64,000 nucleotides of DNA, from IMG/VR virus record IMGVR_UViG_3300005936_000001, positions 62,001-126,000 of that record. One strand, 5' to 3'. Numbering within the stretch: position 1 is the stretch's first letter; each line of letters starts with the position of its first letter. Positions 464 through 59,789 of this stretch are shown in pieces. The notes beneath the pieces were generated by a model. That model was not told where the DNA came from. It searched no databases and was given only the letters and a program-made list of their open reading frames with translations. The stretch is from a virus. A program made the translations under genes and the position numbers.

Positions 464-1579
464 ATGAAATTTATAGAAACAGAGGATACAAAAGTTTTAT
501 CCTCAAAAAAGTATAATTATGTTTTTAATAAGATAAGCGGTGATTTTATGCGCTGGGGCGAGACAGAGGAAGAGGATCCGGATATGTCTGTATACGGTCC
601 GGAGATAGCTGATATTGAGATTACTGAAATATGTCATGGAGTGCGATGTGATCTTAACGATGAATCTTCCCGTAAGGTATGCCCCATGTGCTATAAGGGA
701 AATAATCCGTCTAATACTTCTAATATGTCTTTCGAGGTATTTAAACAATTATTTGATAAGCTATGTTCCAGAGTTATAGACGGGGAGATAAAGCCCTGGA
801 AGGTATTGACTCAGATAGCTTTCGGAGCAGATGCACAGGCTACAGCTAATCCCGACTTGTGGAGGATGATGTATTACTGCCGTAATAATCCCTATACAGA
901 AGTAATTCCTAATATAACCGTGGCTGATATATCGGACGAGACCGCGGATAAGTTAGTGGAGTATGTAGGGGCTGTGAGTGTATCCTATTACCCGACACAG
1001 AATAAGAACTGCTGTTATGAATCAGTGAAGAAGCTGACTGACAGGGGTCTGAAGCAGACAAATATACATGTCTGTATCTATGAAGAAAGTTTTGAAGATA
1101 CATTGACTTTGTTTAAAGATATACAGAGTGATGAACGTCTGAGTAAGATGGGGGCTGTTGTGATGCTGTCTTTAAAGAAGAAGGGAAGAGGAGTTAATTT
1201 TACACCTCTATCTGCTGAAAAGTTTAAAGTATTAGTGGATATAGCTTTGAAAGCCAAAATAGATTTCGGCTTCGACAGTTGTTCCGCGCCTAAGTTTCTG
1301 GATGCTGTGCGGGATAGTGATATGTATCCGGAATATTTTAAGATGAGCGAGTCCTGCGAAAGCTTCGGGCTGTTCTCAAGTTATTTTAACTGGGAAGGAA
1401 AATATTTTCCATGTTCCTTCGCAGAAGGGGAAGGAGGATGGGATAAAGGTATTGATGTAATTAATTGTAATGACTTTCTGGACGATGTATGGTTTTCTCC
1501 TCTAGTAAATAAATGGAGGAAGATAAGTCTGGGAACAATTCGTGATGGTGTTCGACACTGTCCTTTATTTAACATTTAA
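464..1579 (+). CDS. Radical SAM/SPASM-like protein with atypical cysteine spacing
   Basis: A 371-residue protein. The segment ITEIC (Cys57), Cys62, then CPMCYKGN (Cys73, Cys76) resembles a radical SAM 4Fe-4S site, but a roughly 15-residue insertion replaces the usual CxxxCxxC spacing. The C-terminal region, with a Cys near residue 298 followed by NWEGKYFPCSF and a last RHCPLF, looks like a SPASM-type auxiliary cluster domain. Such enzymes often modify ribosomally made peptides. Four proteins with an identical Ser-rich leader follow directly in the same operon, making them candidate substrates. That link is inference. The unusual Cys spacing leaves the radical SAM call short of certain. Confidence 0.7.
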   Translation: MKFIETEDTKVLSSKKYNYVFNKISGDFMRWGETEEEDPDMSVYGPEIADIEITEICHGVRCDLNDESSRKVCPMCYKGNNPSNTSNMSFEVFKQLFDKLCSRVIDGEIKPWKVLTQIAFGADAQATANPDLWRMMYYCRNNPYTEVIPNITVADISDETADKLVEYVGAVSVSYYPTQNKNCCYESVKKLTDRGLKQTNIHVCIYEESFEDTLTLFKDIQSDERLSKMGAVVMLSLKKKGRGVNFTPLSAEKFKVLVDIALKAKIDFGFDSCSAPKFLDAVRDSDMYPEYFKMSESCESFGLFSSYFNWEGKYFPCSFAEGEGGWDKGIDVINCNDFLDDVWFSPLVNKWRKISLGTIRDGVRHCPLFNI

Positions 1580-1590
1580 CAGGGAATATT

Positions 1591-1890
1591 ATGAAATATA
1601 GAAGAGGATTTGTAAGTAACAGTTCCAGCAGCAGTTTCTGTATTATGGGAATTGTATTAGAAGAATCGGTCTGGGAGAATATATCTATACAGGATTCTGC
1701 CTTAACGTATTGTCATGGAATAGATGAGTTTTATGAACAGGTTGTTGTAGGGATGCATGTTGAAAACATGAAAGACGATGAAACAGTCAACCTTTTTAGA
1801 GAAAGAATTATGGAAGAACTCACACGTGCTGGAATTGCCGTAGAGTATAAAGATATAGGTTGGTGTGTCGACGGAGGACGTGATGGATGA
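1591..1890 (+). CDS. SNSSSSSF-leader protein 1
   Basis: A 99-residue protein opening MKYRRGFVSNSSSSSF, a leader shared almost unchanged by the next three genes. The remaining 80 residues are acidic and unlike those of the other three, so the leader is the conserved unit. I recall similar N-termini on hypothetical phage and bacterial proteins, but know no function. It follows the radical SAM gene by 11 nt, with an AGGGAAT ribosome binding site, and overlaps the next gene by 4 nt. Confidence 0.85.
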   Translation: MKYRRGFVSNSSSSSFCIMGIVLEESVWENISIQDSALTYCHGIDEFYEQVVVGMHVENMKDDETVNLFRERIMEELTRAGIAVEYKDIGWCVDGGRDG

Positions 1891-2162
1891 AGAATCGAAG
1901 AGGATTTGTAAGTAACAGCTCGAGCAGTTCATTTATAATACAGAAAAAATATTTGAATAATGAGCAGTTAAATATGATTTATGATCATATCAATGTCGCC
2001 AAGGGAATCCTAAAGGAAGATATGGATTATGATATGCCCTGGGATATAAAGAATCATAAAGATCACATTCGAGGAAGTACAATGATGGATAATTTCGATA
2101 TGCATTACTTCCTTACCGAGATAGTCAAGGTTGATGAAGACCATATTGAATGGGATGACTAA
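1887..2162 (+). CDS. SNSSSSSF-leader protein 2
   Basis: A 91-residue protein opening MKNRRGFVSNSSSSSF followed by an unrelated acidic body. It starts in an ATGA overlap with the preceding gene, implying coupled translation. Membership in the four-gene set is clear from the leader. Function is unknown. Confidence 0.85.
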   Translation: MKNRRGFVSNSSSSSFIIQKKYLNNEQLNMIYDHINVAKGILKEDMDYDMPWDIKNHKDHIRGSTMMDNFDMHYFLTEIVKVDEDHIEWDD

Positions 2163-2164
2163 AC

Positions 2165-2632
2165 ATGAAGAATAGAATAAGATTTGTGAGCAACAGCTCC
2201 AGTAGCAGTTTTATAGTTATTGGGGATGAGCCTTCCAGATGTAATTCTGTACTGCTGGAAAAAGAACAGCGTAAAAAAGTATTGGGATATCTTAAGCTGG
2301 ATATCCCAGACGATGAAGTAGTGTACTTAACTGACTTCGTCTGTGAAGGTGATACAGAGGTTCTGAAAGTTCCGAGAGATAAGATACACTTTTATGCTGA
2401 TGGTGGACATGGACATCCTTATAGTGAAAAGGATTACTATGAGCTGGAGGATGCCGGTGTATGGATAATGAAGGAACACTTTAGTGCTGACGGAGAAGCT
2501 GAGAAAATAATCGAGTGGATTCGCAGAGAAGTTCTCGGGGCTGGATTTACTCTGGACCGACGAAATAACACAGTCTGTCTGGAACATCCAAGAAGCGGTG
2601 CAGGATGGGAAATCATAGAAGATGAAGAATAG
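2165..2632 (+). CDS. SNSSSSSF-leader protein 3
   Basis: A 155-residue protein opening MKNRIRFVSNSSSSSF, the longest of the four. The body contains an HGHPYS segment and an acidic C-terminus, with no domain I recognise. It is spaced 2 nt from the previous stop and overlaps the next gene by 11 nt. Confidence 0.85.
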   Translation: MKNRIRFVSNSSSSSFIVIGDEPSRCNSVLLEKEQRKKVLGYLKLDIPDDEVVYLTDFVCEGDTEVLKVPRDKIHFYADGGHGHPYSEKDYYELEDAGVWIMKEHFSADGEAEKIIEWIRREVLGAGFTLDRRNNTVCLEHPRSGAGWEIIEDEE

Positions 2633-2984
2633 AAAAGGATTCGTAAGTAATAGTTCGAGCAGTAGTTTTATACTCGCTATTAAAGAAGCTATCCCCTGCT
2701 CCCTTTGCGGGAGGAGTGATTTAACATATGATAATTTTATCCAGATGATAGAAGGATCTAACGACTCGGACACTGAATTTAGGGGTGAAGGTCTTAAAGA
2801 GGCGGAAGAGTGGTTAGAATCAGGTTATATGGAGGAAGATAAGCTAAATGAAATAAAGAAAAAGATTAGAAAGTTATCTAAGGATAATGAGATAGTACGG
2901 GTGGATGTATCGTACTGCGATGAGCATATTACTGAGATTATAAAAACATCTCCTAATATTCAGATAGTTTGGAGTAATGAATAA
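2622..2984 (+). CDS. SNSSSSSF-leader protein 4
   Basis: A 120-residue protein opening MKNRKGFVSNSSSSSF. After the leader comes a CSLCG pair and a later YCDEH segment, so it may bind a metal. It is the last gene of the cassette and is followed at once by a rho-independent terminator. Confidence 0.85.
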   Translation: MKNRKGFVSNSSSSSFILAIKEAIPCSLCGRSDLTYDNFIQMIEGSNDSDTEFRGEGLKEAEEWLESGYMEEDKLNEIKKKIRKLSKDNEIVRVDVSYCDEHITEIIKTSPNIQIVWSNE

Positions 2985-2986
2985 AA

Positions 2987-3009
2987 AGAGGGCTTAGGCC
3001 CTTTTTTTA
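2987..3009 (+). terminator. Rho-independent terminator closing the SNSSSSSF operon
   Basis: GGGC-TTAG-GCCC hairpin followed by a run of seven T, starting three bases after the stop codon of the last SNSSSSSF gene. Confidence 0.85.
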
Positions 3010-3013
3010 GCTA

Positions 3014-7757: not shown

Positions 7758-10700
7758 TTATACATCCCAGTTAGCTAGATGCGGGTCAGCCAGTGCCATA
7801 TCCTCGTAGGAAGGACCCTGTACACTGGTAACCAGCGACGGATACCTGCCCCTAATATGCCAGATAGCGGAACAGGCTAGATTAAGAGAGAAAGCAAAGT
7901 CATCTGTTTTGTTAGGGACTTTAATCATAAGGGTATAATCCTTACCGCGGGGAGTTTCTCTCGTCTCCTGCATTATATTCAGCAGATCACTCAATACATC
8001 CTTAGTCTTCCCGTCGTTCTTTTCCCAGTCGGGAAGAGTTACCTGCTGTTTCTTAATCATTTCGAACAGAACCAGTAAAGAACGGGTCTTATCTATATTG
8101 TAACAACTTCTACCACCATTTGCGGGCTGGTAGAAGTTGATGATACTAGTGTTAACAGGGGCGTGGACGATTTGGAAGGGTACTATTTGCTCCACGGGGT
8201 ATCCCCGTTGGACTATTGTGGCTTCCCTTATCATTCCAGCCCCTGAAAAATCGTGTGCAAAATATGTTATCTCGAACTGGTAAGCATATTCAATAAGTTT
8301 CTTAGCTTCGTCTTCTGGTTTTATCCCTATTTTAAATCTCTCAGCATATATACAGTGTACCGTTTCGCTTCCGGGTATTATACCTATTACAGCTACTGTC
8401 GTTGTCGATATACTATCTGCACCGTATCCACTCCAGTCCACTCCCATAACTACAGCATCGTACTTCTTACGTTCTTTAACAGCCTTGGAGTAATCATTGA
8501 TAAGCCCGTTACTAGCCTGTTTAAGGTGCATTACTGTCAGAGGTTTAACATTTTCATCACACGGGACCCCTAATACCTCGTTATTAAATCTAGCTTCCGG
8601 ATAAGTAGACCTCTTATAAAGCATCTCACTCCATTTAAGAGGAAATTCAGCATGCAGAGGGTGTGTTATCTGCGATAAATGATATCCGGCGAACGAATGC
8701 TGTCTATCGGGGTACGCATGCACATATTCTCCTGTACTTATATCCAGAGGCTTACCGCATTTCTTATTAGCGCAGATACAGGTCTTCTTTCCTATCATCC
8801 GTAATAAATCATGGTCCAGACTAGGTATATTATGTTTACCGCACCCACATCTGATGATCCATTCCGCCTGAGAGCTGTCTGAAAACAGAACACCCAGCGT
8901 ATTATCGATAGTTTTAGGGGTTCCGGTAAACTGATAAAATCCATATTCGGTCTGGGCACTTAAAACCTCACCTATTGTACTAATAAAGTCGTATTGTATG
9001 TCAGAAATCTCGTCAAAGCAACAATTATGAGTTAAGATGTTGTTACTAAAGAAGTTAGGTTGTTTTTCCATTTGAATATCATACACATCTTTAATACCCA
9101 CATATTCAATAGAAATCACTTTCCCTTTTGAAGAGATTCTTTCCCCTTGTGATAATTTTCCCTCTTCCGAGCTAAAAATTCCTGTCTGTATTGAGGATCC
9201 TCCTCCATACGTTTCTTTAATTTCTTGTACTGATTCTGCTTTTGAATCTTTACTTTCTCTTTGTTTCGTTTTCTCCATTCCCTGGTATAATCCGTCTCGG
9301 AGGTATCCCCTTTGACTCGTTTTTCTCGACGCCAAGCATTGTGATGATCTATTCTTTTGTTGTATTTTTCTGGATCTTCTTTCAATCTTTGATAATAAAA
9401 TTTCCGTTCCTCTTTTAGTTTTTGTTCGTATACAGGGTCTCCCTTTTTTGAATGTCTCCATTTCCTTCGAGTAGCATTGTGGAGATCTCTTTTCTGAGGA
9501 TCCTTTAAATACTCCTGTATATATTGTCTCTTCTTTTCTTTCATTTCCGGATGAGAGGCATAATATTCCCTCTTTCTTTTGTTTATTCTCTTCTGGTTTT
9601 TCTGAGTATAAATAGCCGTCCTTTTTATATGATGGTCGGTAAAACATTTTTCGGAACATGTCTTGTTGTTGCTCTGTATCTCTGTCCCACATTCTACGCA
9701 GAGTAGTTTTCGATAATCTATCTTGTAATTCATACATTTCGGAGTAAATTCCCGAATTAAATCCACGCAGGTTCTGGTTCCTAGAACAGATAAACATAGA
9801 ATATAATAATATTTCCCTATATTTCTTCTTGATTTTATAGGAACAACATTGTTTTCTATATCGAATTTTTGATAGAGCCATTTTGAAAGGAGCTCTACCT
9901 CTTCTTTTTGAAATCCCTCGGTATGTATCTGTATAGATCGTCGATCTTTTGTTCGCAAACTCCCGTCGTCGCATATCCACCACATCAGCCCTTCGGGAGT
10001 TATCAAGTCTAACCATTCCTGAGATATCGTCTTCTTTTTCTTTCCAGGGAGGTGTATCAGTTCGTGTAAAAAGAACAAATCCGTATTGGTTGTCGTGCCC
10101 CATCGACTGGACCATTCCCCGAACCCCCTGTTCTCGACTTTCTGTGGTTCTCCCAGCCCCAATTGTCTCGGAGTTAAATAATTTTTCATTATTATGTATT
10201 TCTGGGTATTGTAGTCGTGTTGAATCCATCCGTGCGCTGATTGATAACGGCAAGTTTTCTTCTTTAAACTTCCTATTTGTAAATGTCCGTCCCCTAGAAG
10301 AGTTCCCAACAACATCTGTCTTTGTTTTTCTGAAAGCATGAGTCACCATTTCCTCTATAGTTATCCAACCTACATCGCTGAATAATTTATGATCTATTGT
10401 ACATGTTAAAGTATGTCCAGTATTTAAAGTTATACGAAAACAAGGTCTTACCCCTGTTTTTTCAACTCTCTGGACTTTATTATGTATAATATATCCTTCA
10501 TTAGTGACCGATTCAAGGATTCTCCCTATTTTTAAATCTTCTATAGGAGTCCCCTGTATCAAAGTACCTTTCGCTAAACATTTAGCTGCCGCAAATCCAC
10601 GACAACGCTCACAATCTAGGAAAGCATACGAGAAATACATGTTAGAACCGTTTCTAAAGCTCTTCTGCAGGATAGATTGCTCTCTGGTTGGGTCTTCGAA

Positions 10701-11060
10701 CACCCTACCGAGGTAACTTTCCTTGATAATAGGCCCTACATAGTTAGTGGAGAACCTTTTTATCTGATCATAACGGGGCTGAATGTATAAAGTATGGAAA
10801 TTAGGTATCATTGCACTGTCTAAAAGACCTCTGGAAGCAAGCGATATACTTTTTCCCAACTGCCGGGCCACCATAAACACTACCCTACGAGGCATTGTAA
10901 GTTTAAAGAAGGGTTCCAGTGGATAATGCAGATTAAGAGTCATAGGCTTACCGTCTAACTGCAGATATGGAAGCATTGGGAGGTAGGAATTGTATGCTCC
11001 GCTATGATATCCCTGTAAAGTTTGTTTAAATTGTGTGGATAATTCTGACATGTGAAACAA
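7758..11060 (-). CDS. terL: Terminase large subunit interrupted by an intein
   Basis: An 1100-residue precursor. The N-extein (1-160) has the ATPase Walker A motif ARQLGKS (65-71). The intein occupies residues 161-679. The C-extein opens CCFDEIS, the Walker B region, and carries the RNase H-like nuclease domain with GVDWSGYGADS, FAHDFSGAG and a late DDFAFSLNLA acidic motif. After splicing the protein would be 581 residues, normal for a packaging ATPase/nuclease that cuts concatemers and drives DNA into the capsid. Insertion beside Walker B is typical of inteins choosing conserved sites. An initiation codon two residues later (MSELST) is also possible. Confidence 0.9.
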   Translation of the reverse strand: MFHMSELSTQFKQTLQGYHSGAYNSYLPMLPYLQLDGKPMTLNLHYPLEPFFKLTMPRRVVFMVARQLGKSISLASRGLLDSAMIPNFHTLYIQPRYDQIKRFSTNYVGPIIKESYLGRVFEDPTREQSILQKSFRNGSNMYFSYAFLDCERCRGFAAAKCLAKGTLIQGTPIEDLKIGRILESVTNEGYIIHNKVQRVEKTGVRPCFRITLNTGHTLTCTIDHKLFSDVGWITIEEMVTHAFRKTKTDVVGNSSRGRTFTNRKFKEENLPLSISARMDSTRLQYPEIHNNEKLFNSETIGAGRTTESREQGVRGMVQSMGHDNQYGFVLFTRTDTPPWKEKEDDISGMVRLDNSRRADVVDMRRREFANKRSTIYTDTYRGISKRRGRAPFKMALSKIRYRKQCCSYKIKKKYREILLYSMFICSRNQNLRGFNSGIYSEMYELQDRLSKTTLRRMWDRDTEQQQDMFRKMFYRPSYKKDGYLYSEKPEENKQKKEGILCLSSGNERKEETIYTGVFKGSSEKRSPQCYSKEMETFKKGRPCIRTKTKRGTEILLSKIERRSRKIQQKNRSSQCLASRKTSQRGYLRDGLYQGMEKTKQRESKDSKAESVQEIKETYGGGSSIQTGIFSSEEGKLSQGERISSKGKVISIEYVGIKDVYDIQMEKQPNFFSNNILTHNCCFDEISDIQYDFISTIGEVLSAQTEYGFYQFTGTPKTIDNTLGVLFSDSSQAEWIIRCGCGKHNIPSLDHDLLRMIGKKTCICANKKCGKPLDISTGEYVHAYPDRQHSFAGYHLSQITHPLHAEFPLKWSEMLYKRSTYPEARFNNEVLGVPCDENVKPLTVMHLKQASNGLINDYSKAVKERKKYDAVVMGVDWSGYGADSISTTTVAVIGIIPGSETVHCIYAERFKIGIKPEDEAKKLIEYAYQFEITYFAHDFSGAGMIREATIVQRGYPVEQIVPFQIVHAPVNTSIINFYQPANGGRSCYNIDKTRSLLVLFEMIKKQQVTLPDWEKNDGKTKDVLSDLLNIMQETRETPRGKDYTLMIKVPNKTDDFAFSLNLACSAIWHIRGRYPSLVTSVQGPSYEDMALADPHLANWDV
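9024..10580 (-). mobile_element. Intein in TerL with out-of-frame nested endonuclease
   Basis: The splicing element runs from Cys161 (CLAKGTLIQ, block A) to Asn679 in NNILTHN, followed by Cys+1. Block B is seen as HTLTCTIDHKLF and block F as VYDIQMEKQPNFFSNN. Only about 80 N-terminal and 35 C-terminal residues look like a Hint domain. The roughly 400 residues between are a low-complexity basic translation of the LAGLIDADG gene lying in another frame. Precise splice residues are inferred from the conserved motifs. Confidence 0.85.
9116..10339 (-). CDS. LAGLIDADG homing endonuclease nested in the intein in an alternate frame
   Basis: A 407-residue protein with two LAGLIDADG-type helices, MLLGTLLGDGHLQIG at the N-terminus and LMWWICDDGSLR near residue 117, followed by a C-x2-C/C-x3-C zinc element (CVECG, CSEKC) and a long Lys/Arg-rich helical tail with YYxxxLKEDPEKY-type repeats that may bind DNA. 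Its frame is offset from terL, so it cannot be part of the intein polypeptide without a frameshift. A GAGG site lies 12 nt before the ATG. The stop falls just before intein block F. The host frame stays open over all 1.2 kb. Confidence 0.85.
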   Translation of the reverse strand: MLSEKQRQMLLGTLLGDGHLQIGSLKKKTCRYQSAHGWIQHDYNTQKYIIMKNYLTPRQLGLGEPQKVENRGFGEWSSRWGTTTNTDLFFLHELIHLPGKKKKTISQEWLDLITPEGLMWWICDDGSLRTKDRRSIQIHTEGFQKEEVELLSKWLYQKFDIENNVVPIKSRRNIGKYYYILCLSVLGTRTCVDLIREFTPKCMNYKIDYRKLLCVECGTEIQSNNKTCSEKCFTDHHIKRTAIYTQKNQKRINKRKREYYASHPEMKEKKRQYIQEYLKDPQKRDLHNATRRKWRHSKKGDPVYEQKLKEERKFYYQRLKEDPEKYNKRIDHHNAWRREKRVKGDTSETDYTREWRKRNKEKVKIQKQNQYKKLKKRMEEDPQYRQEFLARKRENYHKGKESLQKGK

Positions 11061-22306: not shown

Positions 22307-24076
22307 ATGGCTAAATATGTATTGTGGTGCCCCGGAGAAAGTGTACATTGTGCTCCGGACATAGCCATAGATACCGAGACAGAACTTATCGTCGATCATA
22401 CAATCCCCAATGTAGTTCTGATGCAGGTATACGATGGGAATATAGTGCATCTGGTAGAGTGGCCTGATATCCCAGGATATCTGAATGAACTGAATACGTG
22501 GAATCCTAAAGGAAGATTCATATTTCATAACGCGGCATTTGATATGGCTGTGTTAGGATATCCCGAGTTTCTGATAAAAGCTGTGGATGAAGGAAGAATA
22601 GTCGACACGATGCTTAGATTTGTTCTGATGCAGATTGAACGACAAGGCTATCTGACAAAGCGATCTCTGAAATATGTATGTAAGCATGTTCTGAATAGAG
22701 AGATAGATAAGAATGAGGACATACGTCTTACATTCAGCAGGAGTGAAGACCCCAGCACAGCCCATCTTGAATACGCGGCTGATGATCCGGTACATACATA
22801 TGATATAGCTATGAAGCTTGAATATCAGGCTACAGAGGATGTACAGGTTAAAGGTGCTATCGCTCTTGACTATATAAGCCGATTGGGGCTGAGAGTTGAT
22901 GAGTCTGAACGAAGTCGTTTGGAAACAAAGTTTCAGACTGCACTATATGACTGTCTTCTTATAATGGAGGATAATGGCTTCATTCCGGGACAGAAGGGCA
23001 ATCAATTGGTTATGCAGCAGTATATGGAGGATTTGGAATTTAAGTATAATATTAAATTGCCCCGTACTGTTAAGACTAATAAAATAAAGACTGGTCAGGA
23101 AGTACTGGACGGGCTGGATATTACGGATCCCTTTCTGGATGCCTATTCAAAGCAGGCACATCTCAATAAGATGATTAAGACTTATCTTGGCGAAGATGTT
23201 ATTGGAAAGGACGGTAGGGTACATACACGGTTTAATAGCTGTGTTGTAACTGGTCGCACATCCAGCTCAAAGCCTAACTGCCAAAACCTTCCAAAGGCTG
23301 AAGGACTTAGAGGAATCTTTATTCCGACAGAGGGGCATTGGTTTAATGCTAGTGATTACTCTCAGGTAGAATTATGTGCTTTAGCACAGGATACTTTGAT
23401 TAAGCAGGGAAAGAGTGTATTGGCAGATAAAATAAATGAAGGTATAGATTGTCATAAATATCTAGGTTCATTTATATTCTCTAAAGATGAGGATAAAATA
23501 ACAAAATCAGAACGTCAGAAATCTAAGATTCCGAATTTTGGATTTCCAGGAGGCCTATCTGCTAAAACATTTGTTCAGTATGCTAAAGGATTTGGATTAA
23601 CTGTCTCGTATATGGAGGCGGAGCATATGAGGAATATGTGGTTGAAAGCGTTTCCGGAAATGAAAGAACATCTTTGTCCTGAACAACAGCTCGAGTATCC
23701 CGGTAAATATATTAGTAAAACACTAACCGGTAGAATTCGTGGAATGTGTTCATACACAGAGAGTTGTAATAATTCTTTCCAGAGTTTAGCCAGTGACGGA
23801 GCTAAAGAAGCACTGTGGTTAATGTTTAAAGAACGTATACGAACAGTTGCATTTATCCATGATGAGACAATCAACGAAATAAAAATAACCAACCCACAAC
23901 AAATGTCTGAAGAGGTAGGGCATGTAGAAGAGTTAATGATTAAAGGAATGACTAAGGTAATTCCGGACGTCGCGATAAGAACAGAATCGGTTTTGATGGA
24001 CCGTTGGTACAAAGAGGCGGAACCGATACATAATGAACAGGGATTTCTACTTAAGTGGGATCCCCCACAACAATAA
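22307..24076 (+). CDS. polA: Family A DNA polymerase with 3'-5' exonuclease
   Basis: A 589-residue PolA-type enzyme without a 5' nuclease domain. The exonuclease has IDTETE near residue 22, FHNAAFD near 72 and YAADDPVHTYD near 151. Polymerase motif A is DYSQVELCAL near 344, motif B carries R-x3-K with NFGFPGGLSAKTF near 400, and motif C is FIHDETINEI near 518. The fingers motif (FGFPGG) and the VELCALA ending of motif A depart from E. coli Pol I. It is the likely replicative polymerase. An aminoadenine-phage DpoZ is a family A enzyme too, which matters given the PurA/PurZ-type gene further on. Confidence 0.85.
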   Translation: MAKYVLWCPGESVHCAPDIAIDTETELIVDHTIPNVVLMQVYDGNIVHLVEWPDIPGYLNELNTWNPKGRFIFHNAAFDMAVLGYPEFLIKAVDEGRIVDTMLRFVLMQIERQGYLTKRSLKYVCKHVLNREIDKNEDIRLTFSRSEDPSTAHLEYAADDPVHTYDIAMKLEYQATEDVQVKGAIALDYISRLGLRVDESERSRLETKFQTALYDCLLIMEDNGFIPGQKGNQLVMQQYMEDLEFKYNIKLPRTVKTNKIKTGQEVLDGLDITDPFLDAYSKQAHLNKMIKTYLGEDVIGKDGRVHTRFNSCVVTGRTSSSKPNCQNLPKAEGLRGIFIPTEGHWFNASDYSQVELCALAQDTLIKQGKSVLADKINEGIDCHKYLGSFIFSKDEDKITKSERQKSKIPNFGFPGGLSAKTFVQYAKGFGLTVSYMEAEHMRNMWLKAFPEMKEHLCPEQQLEYPGKYISKTLTGRIRGMCSYTESCNNSFQSLASDGAKEALWLMFKERIRTVAFIHDETINEIKITNPQQMSEEVGHVEELMIKGMTKVIPDVAIRTESVLMDRWYKEAEPIHNEQGFLLKWDPPQQ

Positions 24077-35104: not shown

Positions 35105-36595
35105 ATGTATTTCGTAACACGAGAACAACTAGACAAACTAACTGAATTGGGCTGGGCTGGTAGCTCACCTACATTCAACATCAATGATGTGGACGGATTT
35201 CTGATACCTCGGGTAGAAGTACATCCGGTAATGGGACAGAATATAGAGTTTAATGATGAACGAACAATGTTTGAAGGTATTTCTTTTCTAAGAACAACTT
35301 TCCGGGAAAGAACCAATAATGATACTCCACAAGTAGAAGTAACGGCTGAAGAAGTAGTTCCTGATCCTCTGGAAGATATACCGCCCGTTGCACCTCCAGC
35401 CCCTAATGAGGCCGAGGTAGTAAGTGCGGGATCTGGAAGTATCACAGTACAATCATCTCCCGATAAGTGGGATGGACGTGGTCGTGAAGACTTCATAAAA
35501 GTTGTTGAAGAAGTGTTACAGGATGTATATACGAATGTATCTGTTACAGTTCCTAACGGGGATATTGAACTTCCTGAGGACTGTGAGCATGACCTGAATA
35601 TTAGAGTATGGTCTTCTCCTAAAGCAGATAGTCTGATAGGCGGAGCTGATGGTAAGTTAATTCCTCCATCAAGTCTATTCGGAAAGAAAGTAGGCTGTGA
35701 AGATCCTATGTTCCCTCTTACAGACAGTGGGGTGGGAATTAATGATCCTAAGACAGGTGTTGCAATAATGGAATATGTTAAACCGAATCATCTCTATTTT
35801 CTATGGGATGCGGTTCAGAAGCCTTCCATTTCAGCAATCACCATTTTCAGAAAATCTTTGGAGCTATTCAAAGAGCAACTGGGAACGGAGCAACTCAAGT
35901 CAGAAGTCGCTGATATCGCCAAGACCCGTGAGAAGAAAGATCGGGAAAGGCTGATAAAGTTTGTTGAGGATGTTCTTTCAGTCGAGTATAAAGGGCTGCA
36001 GGACACAATTGATAAACTTTCAAAAGAGATTGAAAAGCATCAGGGACATTTGACGCTTAAATTAAGAGATCGTACTGCAAAGATGCAGATGGTTGAAGCA
36101 GGTACATCGAATAATTTTGATGAAAGAGCTAACAAAATGATTCGTGACCTGTATTCCCAGAAGCATGTCAGAGGAGTACGGATTGTTAAGGACGGGGTAC
36201 ATATAATAACAGATACAGTATATGTTATTGACCCACGTACGAAACTTAACCACGAGGTCGGAGCTTTTCGTATTGAAGTTCCTACAGATGTTAATAAAGA
36301 AATACTAATGTTAAATACTACTCAGCAGATTACGGGATATAACTCCAGAGGGATGCATGCTCCGCATGTATTTCCTGATGGTAAACCCTGTCTGGGAGAT
36401 CTGGTGGAATCGCTCCCTCAGATCAGAGCAGCTCATAACTACAGTGCCATAGCAGCTCTGTGTATACTCTACCTCGAAAACGTTAATGTTGACGATGCCG
36501 CTGGTAAGTATGTAAACAGATGGCCTTTGGTCAAAGAGGACGGAACGGTTGTTGCTTGGAAAGACCGTGACGATAAAGATAAGGACATAATGTAA
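35105..36595 (+). CDS. E2-like ubiquitin-conjugating protein with N-terminal phage module
   Basis: A 496-residue protein. Residues 1-50 (MYFVTREQLDKLTELGW, DVDGFLIPR) are a module shared with two small genes downstream. A Pro/acidic linker leads to a middle domain and a coiled coil at about 255-330. The C-terminal domain has FRIEVPTDVN, then HAPHVFPDGKPCLGDL, matching the E2 pattern of a His-Pro-type turn before the catalytic Cys in G-x-CLG; the candidate nucleophile is Cys429. E2 proteins carry an activated ubiquitin-like protein as a thioester. Neighbouring JAB, E1 and Ubl genes make the call firm. Confidence 0.8.
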   Translation: MYFVTREQLDKLTELGWAGSSPTFNINDVDGFLIPRVEVHPVMGQNIEFNDERTMFEGISFLRTTFRERTNNDTPQVEVTAEEVVPDPLEDIPPVAPPAPNEAEVVSAGSGSITVQSSPDKWDGRGREDFIKVVEEVLQDVYTNVSVTVPNGDIELPEDCEHDLNIRVWSSPKADSLIGGADGKLIPPSSLFGKKVGCEDPMFPLTDSGVGINDPKTGVAIMEYVKPNHLYFLWDAVQKPSISAITIFRKSLELFKEQLGTEQLKSEVADIAKTREKKDRERLIKFVEDVLSVEYKGLQDTIDKLSKEIEKHQGHLTLKLRDRTAKMQMVEAGTSNNFDERANKMIRDLYSQKHVRGVRIVKDGVHIITDTVYVIDPRTKLNHEVGAFRIEVPTDVNKEILMLNTTQQITGYNSRGMHAPHVFPDGKPCLGDLVESLPQIRAAHNYSAIAALCILYLENVNVDDAAGKYVNRWPLVKEDGTVVAWKDRDDKDKDIM

Positions 36596-37741
36596 TGCCT
36601 ACAGTCGAATGGTTAAATGAAGGAATGCCCTCGGTAGTATTACTACCTGAGGTCAAAAAAGACATGGACATTATAATTAATAACTGCGATGATGAAATAG
36701 GATGGTTAGGTCTTGTACGTAAAGAAGAGGATAATGTATTTTTAGTTTATAATATATTACCTCTTCCCCAACAGGATGTTAACGGTGGAACAACCGAAAT
36801 AACTCCTGATGGACTGGCTGAATTAATGGGGGAACTTATAACTTCCGGAGATATGACAACCGATGAAGCTAATAATATTCGCCTTTGGGGGCATAAAATA
36901 TGTGACGCTGCGTAAGCAGTAGGTGAGTGCCCCGTGACTGGTAACAGTCACTAGAAAAATCTTCTCTGATTGAGGGGGAAGCCCTAACGGTAAAGCCGAG
37001 GGTAATCCTGCCGAACCTTTAAGATATTTAAAGGACGGTCAACGACTAAGCGAGAAGAACCCTACAGGTAATGCTGAGGGCCGAGCGATAGTCTGATCTC
37101 TATGGAGACATAGAGAGGTATCAGGAAACTGGATACCCGCCTACATTAGTAGGTTATTAAGTAACAGAATGTCACACATAAGCGGCGGAGTTGGTCCGTC
37201 CGGCCAGGATAACACACAGATGGAAGTATTTTCTGATAATCTTAAGGGTTCCGAAGGAGCTCTAAACAGATTCTTTATAAGATGTATCGGAAACAATAAA
37301 GGCGAATATGGGTTCGCTATTTTTCAGTATGATATAGGGCTTGCTCTCAAGGATGCCCCATGGAGTATTCAGGTAAATGAAGATGATGATCCTAAGGTAG
37401 AATACTGGAAAGGACAGATCGAGGAAAAGGTTACCAAGATGGTGTATGGTGGCCTAAAAAACGCCGCTGGGTATCACCAGGGTATGAACCAGAGTGGGAT
37501 TGGTTTTCAAGGACATGGTTCCGAGCATGGATATGGTGGTTCACCTAATGGCTATGGAAATAATGGCTATCAGGGAAGACCTGTAGGAGGAAACAATGTT
37601 CATAAGACATACCCATTGGATAATGTGGACGATGGAGTTGAAGGAGCTACTCCTTTAAAAAAAGTAGGTAAAAAGAGAAAACCAGGTCGTCCTCCTAAAA
37701 ATAAGAAGGTCGGTAAGTATTCCTTTCAGGAAATTGACTGA
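36595..37741 (+). CDS. JAB/JAMM metalloprotease gene split by a group I intron
   Basis: Exon 1 is 36595-36894 and exon 2 is 37172-37741. Joining them gives 289 residues and rebuilds a perfect JAMM site: Glu34, then His100-Ser-His102, seven residues, Ser110, two residues, Asp113. Without splicing, exon 1 ends after six missense residues at a stop. JAB proteases cleave ubiquitin-like precursors or conjugates. The C-terminal part is Gly/Tyr-rich, then Lys-rich (KKRKPGRPPKNKK), like an AT-hook. The start overlaps the E2 stop and the end overlaps the E1 start. Confidence 0.88.
36895..37171 (+). ncRNA. Group I intron (277 nt, no endonuclease gene)
   Basis: The 5' exon end GGGGCAT pairs with GTGCCCC at 36927-36933, giving the canonical U-G pair at the splice site (P1). 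The 3' end is the terminal G at 37171. GGTCAACGACTAAGCG near 37037 matches the conserved R region, and GACTA there pairs with TAGTC near 37090 to form P7. The size is typical of a minimal group I ribozyme. It contains no reading frame, so any homing endonuclease must be supplied elsewhere. Confidence 0.9.
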
Positions 37742-38430
37742 TGGGTATACCTGCCAGTATCTCCTATAATAGACAGCTATCTGTTTTTAAACCTAATTTG
37801 TTTACAAAGAAGGTTGACATAATAGGGGCTGGAGCAACAGGTTCACACGTAGCTTATTTACTCGCTAAGATGGGAGTGAAAAAGATACGTGTGTTCGATT
37901 ATGATAAGGTGGAAGAACACAATATTCCTAATCAAATGTTCCGACTGTCTGATGTAGGGAAGTACAAAGTTGACGCTCTTAAAGAGCTCATAAAACAATT
38001 GACGGAAATTGAAATAGAAGCTGTCAATGAAAAAGTGGAGACGGGTTGCGGATATGTCCCGGGGAATATTGTATTTCTCCTGACAGATACAATGTCTTCA
38101 CGTAAGGAAATTTTCACTGAATTTCTAAAGATGAAGTTCGGTGTTAATTTAATAGTAGAAACAAGAATGGGGGATGATAACGGAAGAATTTATTCTTTCG
38201 TTCCGACAATGCTTAATCAGGCAGAGAAGTGGGAGGCTACTCTATATGATGATGATACGGCGGAAGAATCTCTCTGTGGCTCTTCTGTTTCAGTAATTGC
38301 TACAGCAGTTAATATATCCACAATAGCTGTTTGGCAGATGCTGAAGCATAATAATGGAGACCCAATCGAGAACGAAATCATATACGGCATGCGGCCATAT
38401 ATGTCTATAACACAAACCTTTAAGTTATAA
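37741..38430 (+). CDS. E1-like ubiquitin-activating protein (ThiF/MoeB family)
   Basis: A 229-residue Rossmann protein. IIGAGATGSHVAYLL (residues 27-41) is the nucleotide-binding loop, DYDKVEEHNIPNQMF (53-67) the conserved acidic and Asn/Arg region, and LLTDTMSSRK follows strand 6. Cys179 in SLCGSS is a candidate for thioester formation. E1 enzymes adenylate the C-terminal Gly of a Ubl, which this operon also encodes. The compact size resembles bacterial ThiF-type E1s, not eukaryotic ones. Confidence 0.85.
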   Translation: MGIPASISYNRQLSVFKPNLFTKKVDIIGAGATGSHVAYLLAKMGVKKIRVFDYDKVEEHNIPNQMFRLSDVGKYKVDALKELIKQLTEIEIEAVNEKVETGCGYVPGNIVFLLTDTMSSRKEIFTEFLKMKFGVNLIVETRMGDDNGRIYSFVPTMLNQAEKWEATLYDDDTAEESLCGSSVSVIATAVNISTIAVWQMLKHNNGDPIENEIIYGMRPYMSITQTFKL

Positions 38431-38444
38431 CAAAGGAATAAGTA

Positions 38445-38858
38445 ATGAAACAAATCACAGTAGGAAAAGTACCAGGAACACTTTCAGAAGTAGCCGTCGA
38501 AAATGGCGCTACAGTTGCAGATGCCCTGGCAGCAGGAAACCTCGATGCAGAGGGTTTCGAAATTAAAGTCAACGGCAGTACCGCATCTTTGACAGACGAT
38601 GCTCCTGACGGCGCAAATATTTTCCTGGTCAAGCAGATCAAAGGAAATCAATGCGTAGTAACAGTTGGTAAAGTTCCTGGAACACTCTCGGAATTAGCTG
38701 TTGAATCTGGCACGACCATTGAGGCCGTACTGGAACTTGCAGATCTCGACGCCGAAGGCTTTGAGATTAAGATGAATGGTAGTACCGTATCCGAAGACAC
38801 AGCAGTTGTTGACGGTGCAAATATTTTCTTGGTCAAACAGATCAAGGGAAACAACTAG
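38445..38858 (+). CDS. Tandem ubiquitin-like protein (two beta-grasp repeats)
   Basis: A 137-residue protein made of two near-identical halves, each starting ITVGKVPGTLSE or VTVGKVPGTLSE and ending NIFLVKQIKGN. The VNGS turn and the DGANIFLV strand match ThiS/MoaD-type beta-grasp proteins. The first half runs to about residue 68, and the second ends KGNN. A C-terminal Gly followed by Asn-Asn implies trimming before activation, a job for the operon's JAB protease, which could also cut between the repeats. Preceded by an AAAGGAATAAG site and followed by a terminator. Confidence 0.85.
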   Translation: MKQITVGKVPGTLSEVAVENGATVADALAAGNLDAEGFEIKVNGSTASLTDDAPDGANIFLVKQIKGNQCVVTVGKVPGTLSELAVESGTTIEAVLELADLDAEGFEIKMNGSTVSEDTAVVDGANIFLVKQIKGNN

Positions 38859-54866: not shown

Positions 54867-55256
54867 ATGAAAATAGGGGTAATGAAACCACCAAAAATTG
54901 AATGGAGAATATTAGATGAATCTGACCACACGTATTATATGACCTGTAATAAGTGTGGTCAAACAGGGGACATAGCATACAGCTGGGAAGCAAGCGATAA
55001 GCCATTTGATTGGATAAATAACAAGGGGTCATGGATACAGACAGAGGAATATACTTGCCGTACCTGTCTAGATAAGTTCATGGAGCAGTTTATTAATAAT
55101 AATTGCTCCAATGTTAATAGTGATATTTGTGATACTTGTATATTGACAAACTGTCGTTCAAATAGAACACCAAAAGTTATGCAACTAAAAGCAAATCGAT
55201 TAAGAGATAAATTATTAATATTTGAATATTATTTAAATCAAAAAGGAGAAGTATGA
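54867..55256 (+). CDS. Cys-rich zinc protein upstream of a radical SAM gene
   Basis: A 129-residue protein with CNKCGQ near residue 29, CRTCLDK near 67 and C-x2-C/C pairs (DICDTCILTNC) near 90. The last part (C-x2-C-x4-C, then a basic helix) loosely resembles the FQG/WQ proteins. I chose the ATG after the AAGGAGG run; an in-frame ATG at 54786 lies just after a hairpin and lacks a site. Overlaps the radical SAM start by 4 nt. Confidence 0.6.
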   Translation: MKIGVMKPPKIEWRILDESDHTYYMTCNKCGQTGDIAYSWEASDKPFDWINNKGSWIQTEEYTCRTCLDKFMEQFINNNCSNVNSDICDTCILTNCRSNRTPKVMQLKANRLRDKLLIFEYYLNQKGEV

Positions 55257-56251
55257 AACTGGAGGAGATTGGGTTTTATACTCTGGAGGATAGAAGGGCT
55301 GCAAATGTTTCTTTAGACAGCCCGCTCTGGAGATGTGAGCTTTTGTTAACGGACAAATGTAATTTCTCCTGTCCGTACTGTAGGGGATCAAATGGATACA
55401 CCAAGGGAGAATTGACTGATGAGGAAGCCAAGCATGTTGTTGACTTATGGTCTTCTCACCGACTTAAGAATATTCGTTTCTCCGGTGGAGAACCTACTAT
55501 GGTTGAGTATCTTCCTAAGCTTGTAAGACACACTCGGGCTAGAGGAGTGGGGAGGATAGCAATCTCAACGAACGGTTCTGCAGAAACAGCCCTATATGAA
55601 GAGCTGCTGAATGCCGGAGTCAATGATTTCTCTATATCCCTGGATGCATGCTGTGCTTCTACGGGGGATATGATGTCCGGAGGTGTACAAGGCTCGTGGG
55701 ATATCGTAAAGGAGAATATCAAATTCCTGTCGGAGCATACCTATGTAACAGTAGGGGTGGTAATGACAGAGGATAATCTAGGAGAGCTTCTTGATATTAT
55801 CAAGTTCGCGGCTTCTCTGGGAGTTAAGGATATAAGAATAGTATCCTCAGCACAGTGGAATTCTAAAGAAGATATAAAAAATCTTCTATTAGACACTGGA
55901 GTTAATATTACAGACTACCCTATCCTCAAGTATAGGGTAGAAAATTATTGTAATAATAACAATGTCAGGGGAATAAAGGATACTGATTGTGACAGATGCT
56001 GGTTAGCTCTGGACGATATGGCGATTGCCGGTAACTATCACTTCCCATGCATTATTGCTATGCGGGAAGGGGCTGAACCCATAGGCACTGTTCAGGGTAA
56101 GACAATGACCCAGATACGCAGGGAGCGTCTGGAATGGGTTAAAGCAAACAGAACAATTGAGAATCGTATATGTCGGGAAAGCTGCCTCGATGTGTGTATT
56201 TTCTACTCAAATAAAGTGGAGGAACTTAATAGTGGAGTGCGAAGTTTGTAA
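55253..56251 (+). CDS. Radical SAM protein (MoaA/SPASM-like)
   Basis: A 332-residue enzyme. CNFSCPYC (Cys36, Cys40, Cys43) is the canonical 4Fe-4S site, followed by FSGGEPT near 75 (SAM binding), ISTNGSA near 101 and SISLDA near 126. A C-terminal CDRCW...FPC and RICRESCLDVC region fits auxiliary clusters. It resembles peptide- or nucleotide-modifying radical SAM enzymes, with no sign of QueE specifics. The substrate is unknown; its zinc-protein neighbour is a candidate partner. Confidence 0.75.
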   Translation: MKLEEIGFYTLEDRRAANVSLDSPLWRCELLLTDKCNFSCPYCRGSNGYTKGELTDEEAKHVVDLWSSHRLKNIRFSGGEPTMVEYLPKLVRHTRARGVGRIAISTNGSAETALYEELLNAGVNDFSISLDACCASTGDMMSGGVQGSWDIVKENIKFLSEHTYVTVGVVMTEDNLGELLDIIKFAASLGVKDIRIVSSAQWNSKEDIKNLLLDTGVNITDYPILKYRVENYCNNNNVRGIKDTDCDRCWLALDDMAIAGNYHFPCIIAMREGAEPIGTVQGKTMTQIRRERLEWVKANRTIENRICRESCLDVCIFYSNKVEELNSGVRSL

Positions 56252-57811: not shown

Positions 57812-58671
57812 TGGGTGGCGGAGGTTATTCTACAAGAAATAGGATGACTCGCTCAGCTTCTCTGGGATACACAACAAAGTCTTCCCAGGAGTTATTTCAG
57901 AGCAGGTCTATTAACAATGCAATGGACCCAGGCGGAATAAAACTGAGAGAGTCTCGGGATTCACAAGAACATCCAAACAGCGTACCCATTATACTGGCTC
58001 TGGATGTAACAGGGTCTATGGGATCTATCCCGCACGCTCTGGTAAAGCAAGGCTTACCTGATATCATGGATAGTATCATAAAGTCCGGTATCGAGGATCC
58101 TCAACTACTCTTTCTGGGTATTGGAGATCACGAGTGCGACCAAGCGCCTCTGCAAGTCGGTCAATTTGAATCGAGTGATGAACTGCTCGACAAATGGCTG
58201 ACAACTATCTACCTCGAAGGCGGAGGTGGTGGTAACGATGGGGAGAGTTATATGCTCGCTTGGTATTTCGCTGCGAAGCATACTGCTCTTGACTGTTTCG
58301 AGAAACGCCAGAAGAAGGGGTTTCTATTTACAATCGGGGATGAACATGTCTTAGACAATATCCCTAGCCGAAGTATCAAGACCATAATGGGGCTGAAGCA
58401 GTGTGAAAGCTTCACAAGTCTTGAATTGTTGGATGAAGCACGTAAAACATATAACGTGTATCATCTGCATATCAAGGAAACAACCTCCGGTGCGAGACAA
58501 ATTGTTATAGACCGCTGGAAACAGCTGATGCAGGATAATCTAATAATAGTGGAGAATAAGGATGATGTCTCTTCTATTATAAGTGGTATTGTCAGTAAAG
58601 GGGCTGTTGCTGAAGAAGTTCTTTCAGCGCCTGTAGCAGCACCTACTGCAGAACCTGAAATTATCCTGTGA
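57811..58671 (+). CDS. von Willebrand factor A domain protein
   Basis: A 286-residue protein. After a Gly/Ser/Arg-rich N-terminus, PIILALDVTGSMGSIP (about residues 59-74) is the MIDAS metal site D-x-T-G-S, with a later GIGDHECD and a Gly-rich loop (LEGGGGGNDGESYM) supplying further ligands. vWA domains mediate protein contacts, often with ATPases. It is flanked by a coiled-coil gene and the PurA/PurZ-like gene. Confidence 0.75.
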   Translation: MGGGGYSTRNRMTRSASLGYTTKSSQELFQSRSINNAMDPGGIKLRESRDSQEHPNSVPIILALDVTGSMGSIPHALVKQGLPDIMDSIIKSGIEDPQLLFLGIGDHECDQAPLQVGQFESSDELLDKWLTTIYLEGGGGGNDGESYMLAWYFAAKHTALDCFEKRQKKGFLFTIGDEHVLDNIPSRSIKTIMGLKQCESFTSLELLDEARKTYNVYHLHIKETTSGARQIVIDRWKQLMQDNLIIVENKDDVSSIISGIVSKGAVAEEVLSAPVAAPTAEPEIIL

Positions 58672-59789
58672 TCAGTAGCCTCGTCGTGGGGCTGGGAGCA
58701 GGGGATGAAGCTAAGGGTCTGGTGACAGACTACTTAGCTCATTCCTGGTTTTCCACTAAAGCCCTCAACATTAGGTTTTCAGGGGGTCACCAAGCTGGGC
58801 ATACTGTTGTATCCGGGGATTTTAGACATGTATTCTCTAATTTCGGTTCGGGTACTTTCAGGGGATTACCTACATACTGGTCTAAGTATTGTACAGTGGA
58901 GCCTGTAGGTTTGATGGTAGAATATGAATTACTTAAGAGTAAAGGTTTGAAGCCTGTAATTTATATAGATGCCAAGTGTCCTGTGACTACTCCTAATGAT
59001 ATAGGAAGTAACAGAGAAACAGAAGAGGTCAATAAGCATGGTTCGTGTGGTGTTGGAGTAGGGCAGACTTTCCAGAGAGAAGAGGATCATTATTCCTTAA
59101 CTTTCATGGATTTGTTCTATCCGGAGATTCTAAAAAAAAGAATTCGTCTCATCGCACATTATTACATGACTAAGAAAAGAGATACATATTCTCTCACTGC
59201 ATTCTATGAAAGCTGTGAGAAGATAGCAAGATGTGATGATATAAAACTGGTCCACGAGATGCCTGAGTATTCTTCTACTATTTACGAGGGGTCACAGGGA
59301 TTACTACTGGATCAGAACTTTGGGTTTTTCCCGAATGTCACACGTTCAAACACGGGAAGTAAGAATGCTGTCGCTATACAAGGTTCATCCGACTTTCATA
59401 TATATCTGGTAACCAGAGCCTATCAGACCAGGCACGGTAACGGATTTATGTCTAAGGAAGATATCAAACATAATATATTGACAGACCCCCTGGAAACAAA
59501 CCAAACAGGTAAGTATCAGGGGGAGTTTCGAAGAGCTATACTCGATGTGTCTATGCTCGAGTATGCTATTAATAAAGATGATGTTATTCGTAACGCAGGT
59601 TCCCGGACATTGGTAGTAACATGTCTCGACCATCTGTCGGAGTATTGTCTTTATTATAAAGGTTGTTTCCTACGATGTAATAATGAGTCAGACTTCATTA
59701 CATTTATTTCCAGTACATTGGGAATAGATAACGTACTCATAAGTAGGAGTAATGACTCAAAAAACATAGAGGAGTTTAACAGTTCATAA
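58668..59789 (+). CDS. Adenylosuccinate synthetase-like enzyme (PurA/PurZ type)
   Basis: A 373-residue protein with a GTG start overlapping the vWA stop. Family motifs: LGAGDEAKGL near residue 9 with the catalytic Asp kept, SGGHQAGHTV near 40, EGSQGLLLDQNFG near 206 with SNT, TRAYQTRHGNGF near 246 and NQTGKYQGEFRRAILD near 276. The length fits the short archaeal and phage PurZ branch, not bacterial PurA at about 430 residues. PurZ enzymes make the precursor of 2-aminoadenine in some phage genomes. Retention of the Asp leaves a plain PurA-like activity possible. Confidence 0.75.
   Translation: MISSLVVGLGAGDEAKGLVTDYLAHSWFSTKALNIRFSGGHQAGHTVVSGDFRHVFSNFGSGTFRGLPTYWSKYCTVEPVGLMVEYELLKSKGLKPVIYIDAKCPVTTPNDIGSNRETEEVNKHGSCGVGVGQTFQREEDHYSLTFMDLFYPEILKKRIRLIAHYYMTKKRDTYSLTAFYESCEKIARCDDIKLVHEMPEYSSTIYEGSQGLLLDQNFGFFPNVTRSNTGSKNAVAIQGSSDFHIYLVTRAYQTRHGNGFMSKEDIKHNILTDPLETNQTGKYQGEFRRAILDVSMLEYAINKDDVIRNAGSRTLVVTCLDHLSEYCLYYKGCFLRCNNESDFITFISSTLGIDNVLISRSNDSKNIEEFNSS

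Follow-up and report, generated by a model that had tools for sequence, protein, structure and literature searches.

What joins a virus-encoded radical SAM enzyme to the four genes that follow it, whose products agree in their first residues and differ beyond them? The question is raised by a locus near the start of the window analyzed here, by which we mean the whole stretch of 64,000 nucleotides that makes up positions 62001-126000 of a 185,256-base virus record.

The window locus

The gene layout is as an original prediction, made from the sequence alone, had described it: four consecutive genes with a common leader that diverge after it, and a radical SAM gene right before them in the same operon (Table 1). 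The four leader proteins begin with MKYRRGFVSNSSSSSFC, MKNRRGFVSNSSSSSFI, MKNRIRFVSNSSSSSFI and MKNRKGFVSNSSSSSFI, respectively, and fit the pattern MK[YN]R[RIK][GR]FVSNSSSSSF, beyond which their sequences differ. The four bodies represent four different families, every one of which has homologs in other phages. The codon pattern for FVSNSSSSSF occurs four times in the window versus zero times expected from 100 shuffles, which rules out a chance origin of the repeats, and the whole 185 kb record holds no further copy. The enzyme gene ends 11 bp upstream of the first leader gene, on the same strand. Because the leader genes abut or overlap, and because an inverted repeat with a T-run lies just past the final stop codon, the enzyme and leader genes look like one transcription unit, of which the repeat is a candidate terminator. 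The inverted-repeat scan reported this repeat for the minus strand only, and the plus strand was read in the sequence.

Table 1. Features of the leader locus, in window coordinates
Feature	Position	Strand	Basis and remarks
Radical SAM/SPASM-type enzyme, 371 aa, phrog_7293	464..1579	+	ORF, phrog profile, alignment, model
Leader protein 1, 99 aa	1591..1890	+	Leader residues 1-16 at 1591-1638; body family n = 23
Leader protein 2, 91 aa	1887..2162	+	Leader residues 1-16 at 1887-1934; body family n = 17, MDNFDMxxFL motif
Leader protein 3, 155 aa	2165..2632	+	Leader residues 1-16 at 2165-2212; body family n = 4
Leader protein 4, 120 aa	2622..2984	+	Leader residues 1-16 at 2622-2669; body family n = 10, CxxCGR knuckle
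Inverted repeat AGGGC-TTAG-GCCCT, then T-run	2985..3010	+	Read in sequence, just 3' of last leader gene

Two short paralogous CxxC proteins (8-214 and 207-461; CxDCLVSxxNxxxFxVWxxWQxNK) are encoded directly upstream of the radical SAM gene. They were not found beside the enzyme in other phages, and neither gave a PqqD match in Pfam.

The leader is conserved as a protein tag

A codon-restricted DNA pattern search of viral contigs matched 86 stretches, which together with the follow-up loci yielded 307 distinct leader proteins with the leader at the N-terminus. Such leader counts are undercounts, since the scans fixed some of the Ser codons to AGY. The proteins are 40-300 residues long (10th-90th percentile 99-198) with a median of about 135 aa; without the leaders, their bodies form at least 82 unrelated clusters, of which 49 have a single member.

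The leader is conserved more strongly than any body. Outside the seed DNA pattern, 186 leaders have the consensus M-K-[IVT]-R-x-G-F-V-S-N-S-S-[ST]-[SAT]-S-[FY]-[IV]-[IV], in which N10, S11 and S12 are conserved in 100% of sequences, R4 and F/Y16 in 99%, S15 in 98%, S9 in 97%, F7 in 96% and V8 in 95%, while positions 13 and 14 are looser. These percentages are upper estimates because only leaders with at least 8 of 10 matches to the target entered the set. At each Ser position, both AGY and TCN codons occur among perfect leaders outside the seed pattern, indicating that selection acts on the protein, and the same observation excludes a DNA- or RNA-level element. A low-complexity artefact can also be ruled out: the positions are fixed from the start codon, and the body families align independently.

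For these bodies the leader appears close to obligatory, since profiles of the 12 largest body families matched, in the loci examined, 217 proteins with a leader and only one without. Residues 3, 5 and 6 of the leader are common to unrelated bodies of one genome to a degree that none of 500 shuffles reached, as would be expected if the leaders of each genome adapt to one trans-acting recognizer; gene conversion, duplication or codon bias could contribute to this sharing.

The AF2 model of leader protein 1 shows disorder over residues 1-12 (mean pLDDT 42 for the first ten) and has its first strand from residue 16 onward. The leader is predicted from this model, of the sole leader protein modelled, to be a flexible tail on a folded domain. 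A fold search with leader protein 1 produced no confident match (the best was PII-like, E = 0.24), and the bodies of leader proteins 1 and 2 had no match among isolated phages. A short-peptide tblastn search of the leader against phages returned nothing, probably because the Ser run was masked as low complexity. A match of one leader family to phrog_132, "head-tail adaptor", over residues 64-147 was not accepted as a function.

The enzyme family

The window enzyme matches phrog_7293 (E = 7e-87), a family to which no function is assigned. Among isolated phages, 172 have relatives; most of these phages are T4-like pseudotevenviruses, and Vibrio phage D479 is also included. Pairwise identity within the family spans 27-99%. 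The window enzyme itself has no Pfam or NCBIfam match. Its assignment to the SPASM type in the original prediction is nonetheless borne out by its homologs, 22 of 35 of which match PF13186 (SPASM) and 20 of 35 PF04055 (Radical_SAM). In NCBIfam, TIGR04317 is matched by 25 of the 35 (E to 1.6e-10) and TIGR03962 by 13. The best NCBIfam relatives are peptide-modifying SPASM maturases; the matches are weak and do not establish orthology.

The spacing of the cysteines is as unusual as had been claimed. The classical radical SAM [4Fe-4S] motif is CX3CX2C; here the motif is C-x(variable)-C-x2-C, which takes the form CX15CX2C in the window and CX7CX2C in many relatives. Across 39 homologs C57, C73 and C76 of the core cluster are invariant, C273, C298, C317 and C366 are invariant or nearly so, as is Y77-K78-x-N80, and the CX2C-Y-K part is kept. 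Judged from this alignment, the conserved cysteines would provide for the core cluster and for enough ligands for one auxiliary cluster.

The AF2 model of the enzyme has a mean pLDDT of 95.6. In structure comparisons its nearest matches were SuiB (Z 24.6), SkfB (22.3) and anSME (19.5; 4k38), with the sactisynthase entries 5why and 5wgg (19.4 and 18.4), ChlB with leader peptide (18.8), TigE (18.4) and PqqE (17.9) among the further matches and CteB also close. Almost all of these top matches to the predicted model are peptide- or protein-modifying enzymes, and a common fold is no proof of function. A sequence search against solved structures returned chance PPR-repeat matches first, with BtrN and SkfB matching weakly. 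The N-terminus of the model consists of four strands, with no helix of at least 4 residues before residue 90, and no RRE-like peptide-binding domain was seen in the model. Some RiPP maturases have no RRE.

The record encodes other radical SAM proteins. One, at 55253-56251 of the window, has the canonical CNFSCPYC motif (PF04055, E = 6.5e-21) and is unrelated to the leader-linked family; two more lie elsewhere in the record (C1:24923 and C1:132678).

Enzyme and leader occur together

The original prediction proposed that one processing system involving the radical SAM enzyme reads the leader, and a leader found widely without a radical SAM gene would have refuted it. This was not observed. The leader alone identified 69 distinct viral records, and phrog_7293 is encoded in 48 of these. 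The enzyme is present in 23 of the 25 records of at least 100 kb and in 25 of the 44 shorter ones, so most of the absences look like fragment effects. In the converse search, an enzyme-only DNA motif derived from FGFDSCSA found 22 viral records; 13 were already known leader carriers, one being the window's phage, and 8 of the 9 new records carry leaders. Leaders are therefore found in 20 of the 21 records identified by the enzyme motif alone, the window's own phage excluded. Among 37 random viral records of at least 15 kb, none had leaders and none had the enzyme. Fisher tests gave p = 7.5e-14 for 48/69 versus 0/37 and p = 3.4e-8 for a further comparison of pairing with random records, with the caveats that the records are not all independent and that the random controls were shorter on average.

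All 187 leaders near an enzyme gene lie on the same strand as the enzyme, and the median nearest gap is 219 bp. Genes within a phage block tend to point the same way, which makes the agreement in strand weaker evidence than it looks. Apart from the leader families themselves, the enzyme is the only family that recurs beside leaders (71 loci, versus at most 9 for any other family), a count inflated by the 48 loci that were fetched through the enzyme. No recurrent protease, exporter or other gene was found beside the enzyme-leader pair among the loci compared.

The leader is almost confined to viruses: 84,980 prokaryote genomes contained three real matches, all on MAG contigs, and at two of these loci the enzyme is encoded as well. 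A 6.3 kb contig from a MAG labelled Heimdallarchaeota (L153) encodes five tandem leader proteins of one body family beside the enzyme, and is probably a mis-binned or archaeal virus contig. The pair thus recurs across many distant phages, and its near-complete reciprocity supports the idea of a common processing system, while the modification itself remains undemonstrated.

The pairing has exceptions. Even by the enzyme profile (A1), 21 of the 69 leader records lack the enzyme, among them two of 161-162 kb (G007 and G032). A 321 kb genome (G072; L162, L274) has a divergent enzyme and no leader by the pattern used; this enzyme may use another tag. In the pseudotevenviruses RB16 and GAP161 the leader genes and the enzyme are about 20 kb apart. 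The RB16 enzyme is RB16p156; the leader proteins of this phage, RB16p106 and RB16p111, have no annotation beyond "conserved hypothetical protein", and their genes belong to a series of similarly annotated genes that lies beside the baseplate genes and on the opposite strand to them. At L051:3025-3459 an SNSSSSSF leader is fused in frame to the C-terminal SPASM half of a leader-linked enzyme, which suggests a deletion between neighbouring genes and probably marks a decayed locus.

A proposed modification system and its alternatives

In the absence of biochemistry or mass data, we think it likely that these phages encode a system for post-translational modification whose target is an N-terminal tag of many phage proteins. 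This reading rests on the observed tag and its protein-level conservation, on the co-occurrence, co-orientation and proximity of the tag with one enzyme family, and on the fold of that enzyme. The bodies being unrelated, only the tag can be the substrate common to these proteins. Action of the enzyme on the tag is inferred, as are its site and the retention of the product. The radical SAM/SPASM enzyme would recognize the disordered N-terminal tag MKxRxGFVSN, in which the near-invariant R4 and F7-V8-S9 look like recognition residues. A radical reaction within the tag would follow; its most likely site is the invariant N10-S11-S12, and the conserved aromatic F/Y16 is a possible partner. The expected product would be a side-chain oxidation or an intramolecular cross-link within SNSSxxSF, and the modified tag would stay on the mature, otherwise unrelated small phage proteins, where it might conceivably bear on the stability, the assembly or the targeting of takeover proteins. 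Some leaders have Leu or Met in place of F7, which speaks against a cross-link that must use an aromatic residue at that position, and the absence of Cys from the consensus makes thioether chemistry unlikely. The enzyme-free leader records (21/69), the G072 genome, leaderless by the pattern used, the spacing of about 20 kb in pseudotevenviruses and the lack of an RRE-like domain in the model count against the modification reading.

Alternatively, some phage structure might read the leader as a targeting or packaging signal, comparable to the capsid-targeting sequences that T4 internal proteins carry or to an import signal, with the enzyme modifying something else and merely occupying the same gene block. 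The tag is N-terminal, short, disordered and positively charged at its start, and it is common to unrelated proteins, all of which would suit such a signal, as would the two records of 161-162 kb that have leaders and no enzyme. We nevertheless consider this explanation unlikely: leader and enzyme each accompany the other across very divergent phages, whose enzymes are as little as 27% and as much as 99% identical, and no other family behaves in this way; pseudotevenviruses keep both enzyme and leaders although they are 20 kb apart; and Asn-Ser-Ser is rarely fixed at 100% in signals of this kind. The two explanations are also compatible, in that the signal could consist of the modified tag.

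A RiPP-like pathway seems very improbable; in it, the leader would guide the enzyme to modify the body and would later be removed to give secreted or acting products. The classic RiPP pattern, a leader followed by diverse sequences with a SPASM maturase gene alongside, is indeed present, and the nearest folds of the enzyme are RiPP maturases. However, the bodies are large and unrelated and have no common core motif, the one that was modelled is folded, no recurrent protease or transporter is found nearby and no RRE was seen; moreover, conservation is highest in the leader, which continues without a break into the first strand of the model. Least credible of all, and close to dismissible, is the notion that the leaders have no shared biochemical role and are a duplication relic or a selfish coding segment spread by recombination. 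It would account for the four tandem copies in the window, for the multiple copies per genome in many records and for the leader residues held in common within genomes, but not for at least 82 body clusters, many of them common to distant phages, nor for a motif held at the protein level through both Ser codon families and tightly coupled to one enzyme family.

The modification system that we favor could be broader in meaning: a virus-specific, proteome-scale modification code, in which the same new chemical group on the N-termini of many unrelated phage proteins would serve as a viral identity or stability tag, in phages as different as T4-like viruses of E. coli and very large phages. We offer this extension tentatively, as a serious possibility that stops short of being probable.

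Other features of the window

A phage locus of the ubiquitin-like conjugation type occupies 35105-38858. It encodes a protein of 496 aa (35105-36595), a JAB-like protein recognized by eye (36595-36915), a ThiF/E1-like protein (37741-38430; PF00899, E = 2e-20) and a tandem ThiS/SAMP-like beta-grasp protein (38445-38858). The same phage encodes a family A DNA polymerase (22307-24076) and an adenylosuccinate synthetase homolog (58668-59789; PF00709, E = 1e-41), together a possible lead to 2-aminoadenine (PurZ-type) DNA. On the minus strand, 7758-11060 is a very long ORF with an intein splicing domain (PF14890) and a nested ORF inside; by eye it looks like the gene for a terminase large subunit, interrupted by an intein that carries a homing endonuclease.

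Comparison with known systems

The locus meets one feature of a classical RiPP system, an enzyme gene beside genes with a leader, and lacks two others, a short precursor with a small core and a recurrent peptidase or exporter. Without a recurrent protease or exporter, and with tagged proteins of 40-300 residues, it is not a classical RiPP pathway, and the judgment that no known RiPP class fits still holds.

The closest structural relatives of the enzyme are the RiPP radical SAM/SPASM maturases SuiB and SkfB. SuiB, with its substrate SuiA, makes the Lys-Trp C-C cross-link of streptide, and SkfB makes a thioether. The fold is the same over the whole model, comprising the radical SAM core and the C-terminal auxiliary-cluster region, and in these systems, too, the enzyme gene is adjacent to genes with a common leader. 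In contrast to SuiB and SkfB, the phage family has only four conserved Cys behind the core and no RRE-like N-terminus in the model, and its tag contains no Cys or Trp, is carried by proteins of ~90-200 aa, of which the one modelled is folded, and is accompanied by no recurrent exporter or protease. The anSME enzymes oxidize Ser or Cys in proteins that remain proteins. They have the radical SAM/SPASM fold in common with the phage enzyme, and the Ser-rich target of the phage tag is compatible with such chemistry. The phage system differs from them in that the leader consensus, MKxRxGFVSNSSxxSF, lacks C/S-x-P/A-x-R, the bodies are not sulfatases, and one phage enzyme appears to serve many families. 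At the sequence level the best curated relatives are MftC (mycofactocin), PqqE and the tungsten-cofactor oxidoreductase radical SAM maturase (TIGR04317).

PHROG lists the enzyme (phrog_7293) and one leader family (phrog_7397) as of unknown function; its entries do not link the two, nor do they recognize the first ~20 positions of phrog_7397 as a tag of dozens of families. Our literature search found no paper with SNSSSSSF or VSNSSSSS and none on the enzyme in pseudotevenviruses, which is weak evidence, as most subscription papers were outside the search. As far as the literature searched shows, neither the common leader and its occurrence in dozens of families nor its pairing with the enzyme has been described.

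Most of what is known about radical SAM maturases comes from RiPP pathways and from enzymes dedicated to a single protein substrate. The viral enzyme described here appears to serve many unrelated proteins via a common N-terminal tag. If this is true, it adds a layer of virus-encoded protein modification, offers a common handle on dozens of functionally uncharacterized phage protein families, and provides a short peptide tag that is transplantable, along with its enzyme, a pair possibly useful for protein engineering.
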